From Flavobacteriales bacterium (GTDB lineage Bacteria; Bacteroidota; Bacteroidia; Flavobacteriales; CAJXXR01): a stretch of DNA of 64,000 nt. The notes under the pieces are model-generated. The model ran no database searches, was not told the origin of the DNA, and was given only the letters and a program-made list of their open reading frames with translations. The stretch covers positions 62,001-126,000 of the forward strand of contig JAOAQX010000003.1 in NCBI GenBank assembly GCA_025210805.1, in the 5' to 3' direction. The number at the start of each line of letters is the position of its first letter. Positions within the stretch are counted from its first letter, which is position 1. Positions 46,367 to 52,737 of this stretch are shown here, one piece after another. Made by a program: the position numbers and the translations under genes.

Positions 46367-46951
46367 TTACCTCACAAAAGACCTTAATTGTTTTCTTTGT
46401 CTTTTCTTCATTGGCACTGTGATCATCTCTTCTTCAGAATAATACCTTACTGCAATATACTTTGATTTTTTTATTGCTTTGATCATAGCGGGTCTTAGAT
46501 GATAAATTAGTGTCACTTTTCTTGTAGGAAAAACTTTAATATCAGACAAAACCTCTACTTTACTACTATCCAGTGTAGCTATTTTTTGTTTTTGGGGAAC
46601 AAAATTGGTAAAATCTTTTGAAGGCATTTTTTTGACTTCAACAGGGAATACCTCATCGTCTATAATCCAAAATATTTCTGTGTTCAAAGCACAAGCAGTT
46701 TGTTCTAAAGACACTCTGTCAAATACCTTTAGCTTAAAGTTCTTGTCTTTTGTGATTTTCAAAAACCTTTGTTCCAAATCATAAAAACGCGTTCTATGCT
46801 CTACTGTTTGGTTATAATAATGAACTAGAGTAGCGCGCTCTTCATCTTTAATATGGTCATAGGTTTCACTTATGTGTCTTTTTGAAAGGCAAGAAGCTAC
46901 ACTACTTAAAACAACAATCAGTAAACTTAATTTTATCACAGTATTTTTCAT
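46367..46951 (-). CDS. Hypothetical lipoprotein, last gene of the cyclase operon
   Basis: The 194-residue product has a lipoprotein signal with lipobox VASC (MKNTVIKLSLLIVVLSSVASC, cysteine at 21). The mature protein has a helical charged start (SETYDHIKDEERATLVHYYN), a beta-rich middle, and a very basic end (MKKRQRKQLRSFVR). I do not recognise a domain. The 24-base gap to the HD-PycTM gene, the same spacing as the next pair upstream, places it in the operon. It may be an envelope partner of that protein (inference). Confidence 0.75.
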   Translation of the reverse strand: MKNTVIKLSLLIVVLSSVASCLSKRHISETYDHIKDEERATLVHYYNQTVEHRTRFYDLEQRFLKITKDKNFKLKVFDRVSLEQTACALNTEIFWIIDDEVFPVEVKKMPSKDFTNFVPQKQKIATLDSSKVEVLSDIKVFPTRKVTLIYHLRPAMIKAIKKSKYIAVRYYSEEEMITVPMKKRQRKQLRSFVR

Positions 46952-46975: not shown

Positions 46976-48247
46976 CTAAAGCACACTTCCTTCTGCTACA
47001 CATCTCAAACTATAGATAAAAACGATAATGGAAACACATAAACCAATTACGAACACATAATAGGTATAGCGAAGTAATTTATATTTCTTATGCAATACTT
47101 TCCCAAGGAAAAATAAGTCTCTTGACAAGCTATTGTATAAATAATCTTTGTCATTCATTAGCTGTTGAATTCCCCACTCATAATCCTCTAGGCTCATTTT
47201 ATGAAAATTACCAAAAAACAATAAGTTCCCTTTTTTATTTTCAACGTCTTCTTTGGACAAAAGACCATGTGTTGTTTTAGGAATCGTTGATATGGTCGCA
47301 AGAATAATAGAAATAATACTTGAAACCAATAAGGTGATTCCTGCATAAGCTAAGAATGGATTGTTGTCTAATTTTGGAAAGAGAAGTGAGAGTACAATAG
47401 AAATAATAATGGCATTAACACTAATCATAGTGTTTGCTTTATTATCGGCTATTCTACTTAAATTCAAGTGGTTTCTAAGAGAAACTCTAAACATGGTTTC
47501 AATTCCTCTATCGGGTCGGTCTCCTTTATCCTTTTTCTTTTTTTTCTTCTTTGATGATTTAAGATCGTTGTTGTTGGTATTATTATTCTCTTCAGATTCT
47601 TTTCCTGTATCTAACCTGTTCTTTTCCTCAATCATAATCTCATTCATTAAATGATTCAACTTATGTAAATTACCTGATTTTTTAGGCTCCCATTCTCTTT
47701 TTGCATACTCAGTATGGTATTTGTGAGTTTTAAGAAAATCAACACATGATGTTGCCCATTCTTGATTACTCATTTCTGGCTTCATGAGCTCTTTTACTTC
47801 TTTATAGAGATCCTCAAACGAAGTATCAATATAATCTGTATTTCCTAAATGAACAAGATCTGCATCCTTGATGATTTTCTCTAAAATATTTTGAGGGTCG
47901 TGCTGTAAGTTCGTTGCTTGAATCAATTTCATGATTTTTTGCACTTTATTTTCTGGATAATTCATTTTTAATAAATAATCCTGAGCAACTATTGCACTCT
48001 TATCTTCATGGTTTTCGCAAGATTTCACATAGGCAATATCATGAAAAAGTATCGCTATTTTAAGATGTTCTATATCTTCTTCTGAGACTCCTTCAGTATT
48101 CTGAGAAATTTCAATTGCTGCATCAAATACCATTTCTGTATGCATCATATTATGATAAAACAATCTTCTTTGTTTGTTTTCATCAAATGCTTTCTTTACA
48201 AACTGGTAAATGTCGGCTATGAGTTGATTTTCGTTCTGAATATCCAT
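46976..48247 (-). CDS. HD phosphohydrolase fused to a Pycsar-effector-type (PycTM/DUF5706) membrane domain
   Basis: The 423 residues fall into three parts. An HD domain (about 1-205) has histidine at 32 or 36 (HNMMH), the HD pair at 69-70 (ILFHDIAY) and aspartate at 128/130 (IIKDADLVHLG). A low-complexity Asn/Lys linker (218-245) follows. The C-terminal part resembles PycTM/DUF5706, with SLRNHLNLSRIADNKANTMI near 256 leading into membrane spans (about 275-291, 298-322 and 394-413). In Pycsar defence such domains sense cCMP or cUMP and disturb the membrane. Here the same operon encodes a class III cyclase. The HD part may be a matching phosphodiesterase or nucleotidase (inference). Confidence 0.85.
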   Translation of the reverse strand: MDIQNENQLIADIYQFVKKAFDENKQRRLFYHNMMHTEMVFDAAIEISQNTEGVSEEDIEHLKIAILFHDIAYVKSCENHEDKSAIVAQDYLLKMNYPENKVQKIMKLIQATNLQHDPQNILEKIIKDADLVHLGNTDYIDTSFEDLYKEVKELMKPEMSNQEWATSCVDFLKTHKYHTEYAKREWEPKKSGNLHKLNHLMNEIMIEEKNRLDTGKESEENNNTNNNDLKSSKKKKKKKDKGDRPDRGIETMFRVSLRNHLNLSRIADNKANTMISVNAIIISIVLSLLFPKLDNNPFLAYAGITLLVSSIISIILATISTIPKTTHGLLSKEDVENKKGNLLFFGNFHKMSLEDYEWGIQQLMNDKDYLYNSLSRDLFFLGKVLHKKYKLLRYTYYVFVIGLCVSIIVFIYSLRCVAEGSVL

Positions 48248-48271: not shown

Positions 48272-51200
48272 CTAAAACATAAAACCGGTGCTTACTGTTA
48301 ATAACTCTTCATTTTCATAAAAAGTATAACCTCCTCGGATAATTAGTTGATCTAAAATACCGAAATACATTCCTAAACCATAAGAATGATGCCATTTTTT
48401 TGATTCCTCCTTGTCTTGCCAAGTTCTTGCCAAATCTGTATAGGCAGTAAAACCAAAATCGAAAGGAACTACATAATTAGGCACTTTTAACAAACTTGTT
48501 CTTAGCTCTAGGGAATTAAATTGCATAGATCTCCCAGAAAAACGATTTCTATAAACGCCTCTAAAATTTGTTTGACCTCCCAAAAAATGGCTCTGAAAAA
48601 AGGAGAAATCTCCAAAATTCTTTGCAAATCCAGATCTAAACGCTAAAGTTGTTTGTTTTTTCCTGAAATTTAATGGAATAAATAAACGGAGCTCAGATTT
48701 TAACTCGAAAAAAGAATAATCATTTCCAGAAATATCTTGACTCCACTGCCCTGAAGTATTAAACACAAATCCTCTATGTGGGTTTGTTACATGATCCATA
48801 TTCTCGTAGGAAAAACCTACCCCAAGTCCTAAATTTGTTTGACGACTTTTCCAGTGATGACTAAAACTGTCATGGATTCCTTCTTGATGTCTGAAATGAT
48901 TTAAACTCGAAAATATTTCTAATGCGCTTGCATAATTTGATATCGGGATTATCAAACTAGGTTTCCATCTAATTTTTGAAAGCCGTACCCATGCTTCGGA
49001 GTGCTCATCTTTATCTATAAACGGAGTTTCGTTTCCTATTCCATGGAAATCAAAAAACTGCGGTAATCTTAATGATAAATCAGACTCAAAATCTGCTTGT
49101 CCAATGATATCTGTATAGGTAAAAGTATAATCGGCTCGCCATCCATCCTGTCTATTGATCGATTTTCCCAACACAAATTTATGTCTTTGCTCAAAGGGTT
49201 CTTTTTTAAATCCATGCTTGGTATAAACAAAACCTGCCCCCAGATAAAATCCATCATCGGGATTTCTACCAAGACTCAAAAGCGGTGCAAGACGATTGTA
49301 TCTAAAACCTCTTCGGTTATAGTCAATATGCTCAGGCTCATTCTTGATAAATAGCTTAGATTCTTTTCCTAGAGAGAACGCATTCTTAGAGGATGTTTCG
49401 TAGATTTTTGTATAATTTCTCCAACCTTTAACAGTAGAATTATCCTCTATTTTATCTTTTTTTGTACCCCCTATAATCCTCACGAGAATACTTTTATTAA
49501 CAGATCCTTCAACGATATATTCGTCTTTCCCATCTAAGCCATACAATCTTATTTCTTTGGTCTCTTCTGTATTAAAAATGCGTTTATAGAAAGCTTTTGT
49601 AGCGATACTTTTGTCTTTTTTTATATTGAAAACTGACACCTCCACTTCCCGGTCATTCATTCTTTTCACTACAAATTTTTCGCTCCCGAAAGTTCCTATA
49701 ATATCTACTTGTTTTGACAGAATTTCATAATATTCCTTCACAAAATGAGCTAAATTGTTTCTTCTTGCCTTCAAGATGTCTTTCAGTTCGTTACCATGCA
49801 TTTCTTGTGACGCTTTAGGTAATTTTGAAATAGATACCTCGATTACAGAATCTGTAATAAAACTTTGTAGATTTTCGACCTGCAATAACCAATCATTCAA
49901 TGTTGCCTGAGATAAAAAAGCTCTATCAAAATATCTCGCATTAAAATTAAAACCTTCAATACTGATAATTTCTTTTTTAAATGGCTGAAATTTTGGCATT
50001 AAAGCTCTTTGCCTAGTAAGGAAAGGTAATACTCCATCAAATCTAAAAAAGACTTGATCTCTATCTCTAGGTATAGGTCTATATATCGTTTTCTTACCTT
50101 TCTTAAAAGTCGCCCATCTCCACTGATCATCATGACGATCCCAATCTCCAATAAGCATATCAAAGATTCTTGAACGCAGAGTAAAAGGTAAATCTATTTG
50201 ATGTTTTGTTGAGTTTTGAATTTTCTTTATCGCCTTAGAGTAACTGATGACTTTCTTGCTATTTCCAAAATTTGAAAAAGCTTCCATATTATTATCTGGG
50301 CGTTCTTCAATGATTGCGAGCATTCCACCAAATTCATCAATATAATCTCCTAAAATAGCATCTTTGGGAACATAAACTAACTCCGGATTACTATAATATA
50401 TTTTAGCTGCATTTGCAAGTGGCGGAACAGCGAGTGCGGCATAAGGATGAGCACCAGCCATACCTTCATAAATGATATCTTGAGCGATCGTTCCTCTTAA
50501 ATTTCTTTGAGTTAGGAATTCCGTATTTTTTTTAATTCCTCGTAGAGAATATTGTAAACCATTGGCTCCTTGAAGTCTCAAAGAAATAGTTTGCATTCCT
50601 CCCCCTTTTTTAATGGGTGTTAAACCTCCTGCTTTGTTATGTATATCTAGTACAGGAACCTCTATCTCTGTTGCCCAAAGATCTCTATACATATCACCCA
50701 TCAAGAATCGCTTCATTTTTCCACCTTGGTAAGTGGAATCCGGTGTCACCCGCATGACTTGATTTGCATAAGATATTTTAACCGCATTCCCTTTTAGGGC
50801 TCCCAAGTTTTTAATCTCTTTAGTAAATAGTTTTCTATTAAAAACCTCTACCATTTTTCCCTGTTCATTGAGTGCATAAAAGCTTACCCAAACTGCTCCA
50901 TTTGCAAAGATTTTTAATTTAGAATATCCTTTATTACTTGTTCCAAAATCAATTTTCCTATTTCTTTTTAAATAAGTTCCTTTACTTCCTGCACCACTAA
51001 TGATATGATGAAAATTATCTTTTTTGGTATATTGTAAATTATGCTCATGCCCAGAAACATAGATAATATCATCATACTCATTCATCGCTTGAGAAATTTT
51101 TCTTACAAAGTCTCGATAAACAGGATGAGCAATATCTTGCCTATGCCCTAAGAACTTTCTATACCCAGGATAAATACTCCCCAAAACGGGTAATGGAACA

Positions 51201-51967
51201 TAAGCATTTTTTGATAACTCGGTAAGTGGAAACAAATGGTATTTTAATGGAAAATTCCCTCCATGTTTTCCATTACTCACCAGAGGATGATGGCCTGCTA
51301 CAATGATTTTTTTATTTCGATGTTTTTTCAGTTGTTCTTTAAAACTAAAAAGTAATTCATCTGTATTTCTCACGGAACAATCATCGGCCTCTCCATTGGG
51401 TTTTTTGTGAGGATGCAACCACCATTGTGTATCTAAGATGATCATGACTAAGCCTGGGGATAATTCTCGAACTTCGGGACCAGGGCAACCTTTACTAGGA
51501 AGAAATACATCGCCTTTTTGAAGGTATTTTTCTATAAATCTTTCTTGACGCTTTACTTGCTTCTCTCCTTTTTCTCCTTGCCTTTGCCAATCGTGATTTC
51601 CTGGGATAAAAAAGAGATCTGCTTCTACATCTTTCAATAAGTCTAACTGAGCGATGATTCTTTCTTCGTCTTGTTTTCTTTCAGGATGATCTTTTTTCCT
51701 CAATCCTACGGGGTAAATATTATCCCCTAAAACGACTACTCCACATTTTCCGTTTGCAGACATTTCTTTTACCATAGGAGAAAAAACTTCTGAAGATTCT
51801 GTGGGACTTTCTCCTGCATCTCCTACCAAGTATAACTCATATACTAATTCAGAACCCTCATCGGGAATGATTTTGTTCTTTAATTTGGGGTTTATATAAA
51901 CCAATGAACCCGTATTACAAGAGATCATAAACAGAAAAATACTGATATAGATTCCTATTTGCTTCAT
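48272..51967 (-). CDS. Secreted metallophosphatase, kinase-like segment and Omp85-like barrel in one protein
   Basis: This 1231-residue protein has a signal with a possible lipobox (FLFMISC) and three parts. First comes a calcineurin-like phosphatase (about 40-360) with VGDAGES, LGDNIYP, PGNHDW, GHHP and GHEH. The middle (about 440-800) includes FDMLIGDWDRHDDQWRW with DRH at 610-612 and IPRDRDQVF with aspartates at 635 and 637. This pattern resembles the catalytic and metal loops of CotH/HipA/Fam20-type kinases (my inference). The end (about 900-1231) is a BamA/TamA-like beta-barrel with LGGQTNFRGVYRNRFSG and a final phenylalanine. It overlaps the propeller gene by four bases. Confidence 0.8.
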   Translation of the reverse strand: MKQIGIYISIFLFMISCNTGSLVYINPKLKNKIIPDEGSELVYELYLVGDAGESPTESSEVFSPMVKEMSANGKCGVVVLGDNIYPVGLRKKDHPERKQDEERIIAQLDLLKDVEADLFFIPGNHDWQRQGEKGEKQVKRQERFIEKYLQKGDVFLPSKGCPGPEVRELSPGLVMIILDTQWWLHPHKKPNGEADDCSVRNTDELLFSFKEQLKKHRNKKIIVAGHHPLVSNGKHGGNFPLKYHLFPLTELSKNAYVPLPVLGSIYPGYRKFLGHRQDIAHPVYRDFVRKISQAMNEYDDIIYVSGHEHNLQYTKKDNFHHIISGAGSKGTYLKRNRKIDFGTSNKGYSKLKIFANGAVWVSFYALNEQGKMVEVFNRKLFTKEIKNLGALKGNAVKISYANQVMRVTPDSTYQGGKMKRFLMGDMYRDLWATEIEVPVLDIHNKAGGLTPIKKGGGMQTISLRLQGANGLQYSLRGIKKNTEFLTQRNLRGTIAQDIIYEGMAGAHPYAALAVPPLANAAKIYYSNPELVYVPKDAILGDYIDEFGGMLAIIEERPDNNMEAFSNFGNSKKVISYSKAIKKIQNSTKHQIDLPFTLRSRIFDMLIGDWDRHDDQWRWATFKKGKKTIYRPIPRDRDQVFFRFDGVLPFLTRQRALMPKFQPFKKEIISIEGFNFNARYFDRAFLSQATLNDWLLQVENLQSFITDSVIEVSISKLPKASQEMHGNELKDILKARRNNLAHFVKEYYEILSKQVDIIGTFGSEKFVVKRMNDREVEVSVFNIKKDKSIATKAFYKRIFNTEETKEIRLYGLDGKDEYIVEGSVNKSILVRIIGGTKKDKIEDNSTVKGWRNYTKIYETSSKNAFSLGKESKLFIKNEPEHIDYNRRGFRYNRLAPLLSLGRNPDDGFYLGAGFVYTKHGFKKEPFEQRHKFVLGKSINRQDGWRADYTFTYTDIIGQADFESDLSLRLPQFFDFHGIGNETPFIDKDEHSEAWVRLSKIRWKPSLIIPISNYASALEIFSSLNHFRHQEGIHDSFSHHWKSRQTNLGLGVGFSYENMDHVTNPHRGFVFNTSGQWSQDISGNDYSFFELKSELRLFIPLNFRKKQTTLAFRSGFAKNFGDFSFFQSHFLGGQTNFRGVYRNRFSGRSMQFNSLELRTSLLKVPNYVVPFDFGFTAYTDLARTWQDKEESKKWHHSYGLGMYFGILDQLIIRGGYTFYENEELLTVSTGFMF

Positions 51968-52737
51968 GGTCTTGGGATTTTAACAATATTTGGAAATCCA
52001 TTTTTCTTTTCATTCGAAATATAGATTTCTCCTGTCTTTAGCACAACAATTCCCTCTGGTTGTTGAAAGGGTCTTTTGGGTAATTTTATTTTATCAAAAT
52101 CAGCTGTTTTCATTGTATAGATCATTAATTCTCTTGAAGAAGAACTGAGAATAAACCATGTCCCATTGGGTTGAATGTATAAACCTGAAGGTTTGAAATT
52201 TTTTCCAACTTGATCATGAGCTAGAGTTAAAATTGGCTTTTTTAAATATTCCATTTTTTCTAGATCGAAAGCATAGAAAAGCACCTTATTTTTATATTTT
52301 TTTATCGAATGTGATTTACAAGCAAGAATCAATTGTTTATTTTGCTCATCGTAACTCAAGCCTTCAAAATCAAACCCATTTCTTTTTGGAAACTTAAACC
52401 GATCTTTTCCCTTAATATCAAGAGGATACAAGTCTCCATTACTTTTTAAAACAAATAAGCCTTTAGAAGTATTTGTAATCCCTTCATAATCTCCATTTTT
52501 TCCAAAATATCGTTCATCAATCGTTCTACCTGAAGACGGATCAATTTGAAAAACGATGCCTTGCTCATCATTAATCGCAAATAAATTTGAATTCTCATCA
52601 AAGGTAAGACCCGATATCTCATTTAGCTGATTATCTAACTCCACAATATCGAAACCAATGTTTTGTTGAGCGTTTTTTACTAAGCCATCACAGGCAAATA
52701 AGGTCATTGACAATATGACAAATGCAAGTCGCTTCAT
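51964..52737 (-). CDS. SdiA-regulated-type beta-propeller lipoprotein
   Basis: The 257-residue protein has a lipoprotein signal (MKRLAFVILSMTLFAC, cysteine at 16) followed by beta-propeller-like repeats: LNEISGLTFDENSNLFAIND near 39, then YEGITNTSKGLFVL, DFEGLSYDEQNKQLILACKS and QPEGIVVLKTGEIYISNE. The E-G/S-G-L pattern fits the SdiA-regulated/phytase-like group. Function is unknown, though some propellers of this kind are phosphatases or binding proteins. It overlaps both neighbours by four bases, so it is firmly in the operon. Confidence 0.8.
   Translation of the reverse strand: MKRLAFVILSMTLFACDGLVKNAQQNIGFDIVELDNQLNEISGLTFDENSNLFAINDEQGIVFQIDPSSGRTIDERYFGKNGDYEGITNTSKGLFVLKSNGDLYPLDIKGKDRFKFPKRNGFDFEGLSYDEQNKQLILACKSHSIKKYKNKVLFYAFDLEKMEYLKKPILTLAHDQVGKNFKPSGLYIQPNGTWFILSSSSRELMIYTMKTADFDKIKLPKRPFQQPEGIVVLKTGEIYISNEKKNGFPNIVKIPRP

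Follow-up and report, generated by a model that had tools for sequence, protein, structure and literature searches.

The window, a 64,000-nucleotide stretch of DNA from a member of the Flavobacteriales, contains an intact reading frame, beginning with ATG, for a long protein whose two ends are recognizable. Pfam reports Metallophos at residues 77-242 (E 1.7e-5) and Omp85 at residues 961-1199 (E 2.8e-14) and is blank across residues 400-900, while residues 396-770 have no family match in Pfam or NCBIfam. What lies between the phosphatase and the barrel is the question raised by this locus. The initial annotation had described a secreted phosphatase, a possible kinase and an outer-membrane barrel on one chain, and we find that the reading frame is real and that all three segments are present. 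Judging by fold, conservation, export signals, domain architectures and gene linkage, the product is probably an outer-membrane protein with two extracytoplasmic enzyme domains that most likely face the periplasm, namely a phosphatase of the purple-acid-phosphatase (PAP) type and a kinase-fold phosphotransferase of a new family.

Coordinates in the window of the phosphatase-kinase-Omp85 gene, its features and its neighbours
Feature	Position	Strand	Remarks
Whole gene: PAP-type phosphatase, kinase-fold domain and Omp85 barrel	48272..51967	(-)	1231 aa
Signal peptide with lipobox, residues 1-17	51917..51967	(-)	MISC, Cys17
Metallophosphoesterase, purple-acid-phosphatase subclass, residues 44-395	50783..51838	(-)	ligands D50, D82, Y85, N124, H226, H307, H309
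Kinase-fold (PKL) domain, residues 396-770	49658..50782	(-)	conservation and predicted structure
Glycine-rich strand-turn of N-lobe, G455-G456-G457	50597..50605	(-)	
Candidate ATP-binding lysine, K480	50528..50530	(-)	after strand 3
Catalytic loop, D608-W-D610-R-H612-D-D-Q615-W616	50120..50146	(-)	
Metal loop, P633-R-D635-R-D637-Q638	50054..50071	(-)	
Beta-rich linker between kinase and barrel, residues 771-891	49295..49657	(-)	conserved T803, D815, G821, G833-G834, D838; no POTRA
16-stranded Omp85/BamA-type barrel, residues about 892-1231	48275..49294	(-)	
Omp85 loop-6 RG(F/Y)-type motif, R1136-G1137	48557..48562	(-)	
HD + PycTM membrane protein	46976..48247	(-)	24 bp downstream; conserved neighbour
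SdiA-regulated/phytase-like propeller	51964..52737	(-)	4-bp overlap with gene start; conserved neighbour
Class III nucleotide cyclase, N-terminal membrane segment	52734..53807	(-)	4-bp overlap with propeller gene; less often conserved

The gene is single copy in its own genome, and the AlphaFold model of the whole chain has a pLDDT of 89.9 and a pTM of 0.85. Full-length relatives with 30-47% identity are present in 42 genomes from the sampled order, counting that of the window, and a profile search without a motif requirement finds the kinase domain in 113 of 297 Bacteroidota genomes. An N-terminal export signal is present, as the description of the protein as secreted had implied, and it is of the lipobox type rather than a plain secretion signal, with Cys17 identical in 30/30 same-order relatives. 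Most members are predicted from sequence to carry a lipobox, a signal peptide or an N-terminal membrane anchor ahead of the kinase domain, apart from a few that have truncated starts and cannot be judged.

That the middle region adopts a kinase-type fold had been proposed by inference, and structure prediction bears this out. The AlphaFold2 model of residues 392-800, which was built on 74 sequences, has a pLDDT of 94.3 and a pTM of 0.93, and its DSSP elements run in the order β1-β3, helix, β4-β5, helix, loop and hairpin. The modelled domain is bilobal and includes the N-lobe sheet, helix C, catalytic loop and metal loop of the protein-kinase-like (PKL) fold. A Foldseek search of the PDB returned nine matches at E ≤ 0.001, all of them kinases: six chains of CtkA, which is the best match (E 5.2e-6, prob 1.00), two of Fam20C, and the HipA-type structure 7vkb. 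Next in order are CotH (5jd9, E 1.2e-3) and PI4KIIα (E 2.9e-3). The TM-scores of the middle-domain matches are modest (0.37-0.54), and their E-values are good.

A sequence profile of the middle segment, which uses no structure, also leads to CtkA, the best match among 177,635 PDB sequences (E 0.029) and the second best in another run (E 0.037), although these scores are marginal taken alone. The profile alignment places D610 on D155 of CtkA and Q615 on N160, with GDWDRHxxQW lying over GNFDRHNGNW. On the predicted structure, residues 396-770 are a domain of the protein-kinase-like fold. A weak profile match to YaaH, covering a helical part of the segment away from the active site, was discounted. 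There is also a short, weak match (E 6e-4) between residues 572-626, in the kinase catalytic loop, and the PADLOC candidate phage-defence model PDC-M03A, too short to be informative.

The DRH and DRD motifs, which had been placed at residues 610-612 and 635-637, are found exactly there, and their presence goes beyond coincidence. Seven residues (K480, D608, D610, H612, Q615, D635 and D637) are identical in 33/33 relatives, comprising 30 same-order full-length proteins, retrieved with the whole-protein query and without a motif requirement, and three stand-alone copies of the middle segment. Among them are the four (D610, H612, D635 and D637) on whose conservation the kinase proposal had been made to depend. 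All of these except D608 are also invariant in 127/127 phosphatase-bearing relatives, 102 with an intact and 25 with a degraded phosphatase, a count that is inflated and partly built in because 80 loci of this wider set were chosen by their kinase motifs; the same-order search, the 33-relative alignment and the 297-genome profile search are free of this selection bias. The lysine, the catalytic aspartate and the metal-binding residues typical of the fold are thus present, with one substitution: at +5 from the catalytic Asp, the metal-binding position usually held by Asn, the family has Gln (Q615), and one relative (L158) has Asn.

Profile searches also uncovered divergent branches in which the catalytic residues have been lost (loci L156, L157, L166, L167, L169, L170, L171 and L175). 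GDWSRR takes the place of GDWDRH in L156 and L157, while L166 and L175 carry GDGDRQ and GDGDRL and have lost DRD. These branches resemble pseudokinases and offer a natural comparison with the conserved members. At L156 (7439-9151) and L157 (4433-6055), the divergent genes encode lipoprotein kinase-like copies that adjoin canonical copies, and these may be pseudokinase-kinase pairs. In animals, Fam20A and Fam20C are such a pair of degraded and active paralogues, and the arrangement at L157 resembles them.

Losses of this kind are what would be expected if the kinase-fold domain were a pseudoenzyme or scaffold in an Omp85 assembly factor, the added domains of which serve for partner binding alone. 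Five of the branches (L157, L166, L169, L171 and L175) fit that explanation, as do the 25 members with a degraded phosphatase and the usual role of Omp85 proteins in assembling or translocating proteins (PMC4104836). However, the six active-site residues are invariant even where the phosphatase is dead, and a scaffold would not retain an exact catalytic set; we therefore regard this explanation as very improbable.

A narrower claim, that the segment is of the CotH, HipA or Fam20 type, fails at the level of sequence profiles, the common ground being fold and motif register. When 17 aligned middle-segment members were scanned with Pfam at E 10, only scattered chance matches appeared and none to CotH (PF08757), HipA_C (PF07804) or Fam20C was credible, the HipA model (PF07804) matching one of 17 members at E 0.23. 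Profile-profile comparisons by hhalign with CotH and HipA alignments built from relatives were not significant (E 0.17 for CotH; E 0.12 for HipA, with the motif in register), in a test of low power given that the CotH versus HipA control scored no better than 0.029. Membership in CotH or HipA was rejected on this ground, and we therefore treat the middle domain as a separate family within the protein-kinase-like fold, absent from Pfam.

Comparison with each of these kinases supplies likenesses and differences. The CtkA/HipA-type Ser/Thr kinases share the fold (E 5e-6) and a catalytic loop in residue-by-residue register, with Asp at the base position and Asn or Gln at +5; HipA loops from the same order, FNIAISNTDDHLRNHGF for example, can be aligned with FDMLIGDWDRHDDQWRW with no gap. 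Those kinases, however, are cytoplasmic or injected and have no profile similarity to the window family (hhalign E 0.12), and the PxDRDQ metal loop of the window family differs from the HipA form. The spore-coat kinase CotH is likewise used outside the cytoplasm and shares the fold (E 1.2e-3) and a PxDxD-type metal loop, IPRDRDQ resembling the IPYDTDN of some CotH proteins, but it has neither profile similarity (E 0.17) nor a Pfam CotH match in common with the window family. Genome G000 has separate CotH genes. Fam20C, the Golgi casein kinase, is a secretory-pathway kinase with a fold match (E 4e-4), but it is eukaryotic, has neither a barrel nor a fused phosphatase, and has no sequence-level match to the window family.

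The N-terminal motifs, previously listed as those of calcineurin phosphatases, do mark a phosphatase, as both Pfam Metallophos and the fold match indicate, and the motif set can be refined to that of purple acid phosphatases. Five motifs of this class (D50-A-G, G81-D-N-I-Y85, G123-N-H-D, V223-A-G-H226 and G306-H-E-H309) supply all seven ligands, and the tyrosine ligand Y85 is found in 101/102 members with an intact phosphatase. The best matches in the PDB, by sequence and by fold, are TRAP type 5 and PfGAP50. The window protein has the complete motif set of purple acid phosphatases, whereas the window family fuses its phosphatase to a kinase and a barrel and includes relatives depleted of ligands. 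Among 128 members, 102 keep every metal ligand, 1 has a change at a single site, and 25 are degraded at two or more sites; two of these 25, L034 and L035, came from the search without a motif requirement. The kinase residues are retained in 25/25 of these degraded-phosphatase relatives. GAP50 is likewise a degraded relative.

Of 165 proteins, 130 have the order phosphatase, kinase and Omp85, about 21 have kinase and Omp85, and 14 have the kinase alone. A quick kinase-domain tree requires at least 14 changes to account for the distinction between an intact and a degraded or absent phosphatase, eight of them on well supported branches. When the same 297 genomes of the phylum were searched with the phosphatase alone, stand-alone phosphatases of 366-447 residues were found, and no frame of more than 1100 residues carried a fused phosphatase without the kinase. 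Every phosphatase match in a frame longer than 1100 residues was already in the kinase-profile set, so that fusion of the phosphatase to the barrel always involves the kinase as well. The core of the family is thus the kinase, and the phosphatase is accessory. Five stand-alone kinase-fold proteins (L031, L032, L033, L173 and L174), each of 423-428 residues, carry a single membrane anchor at the N-terminus, and no gene is constantly found beside them.

The C-terminal part is an Omp85-type barrel, as had been read from the sequence: Pfam matches Omp85, and the predicted model has 16 strands by our count and matches the BamA fold (E 6.6e-12). The loop-6 RG motif is conserved at R1136 in 79/79 and at G1137 in 78/79. 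Pfam detects no POTRA domain, the model placing a strand-rich linker ahead of the barrel, and the protein is therefore not a BamA or TamA proper. The barrel starts only once the enzyme domains have ended, and its strand number is even, so that by default these domains would lie in the periplasm; we consider it most likely that both face that side.

The initial annotation had proposed a surface device, a location for which we find no support. In that arrangement the phosphatase and kinase would pass through the barrel and reach the cell surface, where their targets would be external proteins or glycans, in the manner of the type Vd patatin autotransporters. Bacteroidota do export many lipoproteins to the surface, and the type Vd proteins PlpD (PMC4104836) and FplA deliver an enzyme domain N-terminal to an Omp85-type barrel to that side. 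However, the type Vd enzyme is a lipase accompanied by POTRA, whereas the window protein has a kinase and a phosphatase and no POTRA domain. Its N-terminal domains precede strand 1 of the predicted 16-strand barrel, the periplasmic side by default, and by the positive-inside rule the N-terminally anchored stand-alone kinases would point into the periplasm. Display at the surface is thus unlikely.

Part of this architecture has been described before. Heinz and Lithgow defined in 2014 a 'Metallo' subfamily of Omp85 proteins, in which PF00149 was read as a metalloprotease (PMC4104836). Its members have an N-terminal PF00149 domain, an Omp85 barrel and no POTRA, and they are almost certainly the same proteins as the window family. 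They were seen as scattered and without a kinase, whereas here the kinase domain is widespread in Bacteroidota; the words 'kinase' and 'phosph' each occur 0 times in the text of PMC4104836. In the open-access literature, to which the search was confined, no previous account of a kinase in Omp85 proteins came to light. The family is thus already known by its phosphatase and barrel; what is new is the kinase, and that it ranks above the phosphatase as the constant part. Riemerella OMP76, considered as a possible relative, is an unrelated receptor of the TonB type.

Neighbouring genes bear on the context in which these domains might act. Relatives of the HD-PycTM gene occur at 59 loci, of the propeller gene at 33 and of the cyclase gene at 19, and among the 48 fused loci whose flanks are long enough, 38 have HD-PycTM no more than 2 kb away, in several different orientations. 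The genome of the window has one full-length copy of HD-PycTM. HD-PycTM and the kinase-Omp85 gene are functionally linked by this conserved proximity across the phylum, which does not in itself prove an interaction. The propeller resembles an esterase-like phytase domain, narrowly missing the Pfam cut-off (E 1e-5), a likeness that fits a metabolic rather than a signalling role, in which an active kinase-fold domain would have a lipid, an inositol phosphate or a sugar as its main substrate and the phosphatase would be phytase-like or nucleotide-cleaving. PI4KIIα is among the fold matches, and Bacteroidota make inositol lipids according to two papers (PMC9246714, PMC8791184). Against this, the best fold matches are protein kinases (CtkA and Fam20C), and we judge a metabolic role plausible though short of probable.

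If the domain is a phosphotransferase, as we favour, its phosphate acceptor would be an envelope component, whether protein, lipid or glycan. The phosphate donor might be held by K480 and the glycine-rich turn, D610 would serve as catalytic base, and Q615, D635 and D637 would bind metal. The tethered phosphatase could then strip phosphate from the same or a related substrate, with the barrel acting as anchor and perhaps also as gate, and HD-PycTM may tie the device to nucleotide signalling in the cytoplasm. Activity, donor, substrate and membrane side are the parts of this scheme that we infer. The periplasm is expected to hold little ATP, and some kinase-fold families catalyse other transfers, such as AMPylation and glutamylation. 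Both the metal-site Gln and the shortage of extracytoplasmic ATP leave room for other donors or other transfers.

The conserved active site suggests that Bacteroidota, a phylum dominant in gut and marine systems, phosphorylate some envelope component outside the cytoplasm. An active enzyme would mean an integral outer-membrane protein bearing a kinase in an ATP-poor compartment, and raises the question of where its phosphate donor originates outside the cytoplasm. A family filed since 2014 as 'metalloprotease' Omp85 becomes a phosphorylation device open to test, for which residues to mutate and a conserved partner gene can be named. A more far-reaching proposal, which we advance tentatively and hold to be somewhat doubtful, is a phylum-wide system of envelope phosphorylation under nucleotide control, in which an outer-membrane kinase and its same-chain phosphatase would be linked through HD-PycTM and the cyclase to second messengers of the cytoplasm.

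Further along the cluster, 24 bp downstream of HD-PycTM, the frame at 46367-46951 (-) encodes a probable lipoprotein of 194 residues with a VASC lipobox, which has no family match and is not conserved beside relatives of the kinase-Omp85 gene. Pycsar anti-phage systems combine a pyrimidine cyclase with a PycTM or PycTIR effector; the cyclase and HD-PycTM match PycC and PycTM models weakly to moderately, and the cyclase is not always present. The PycTM part of HD-PycTM matches Pycsar effector models (E 1.7e-18) in a setting that is no obvious defence island. The membrane-anchored cyclase, whose similarity to PycC is weak, lies in the same apparent operon as HD-PycTM, and such a pair in a conserved envelope operon is unusual.
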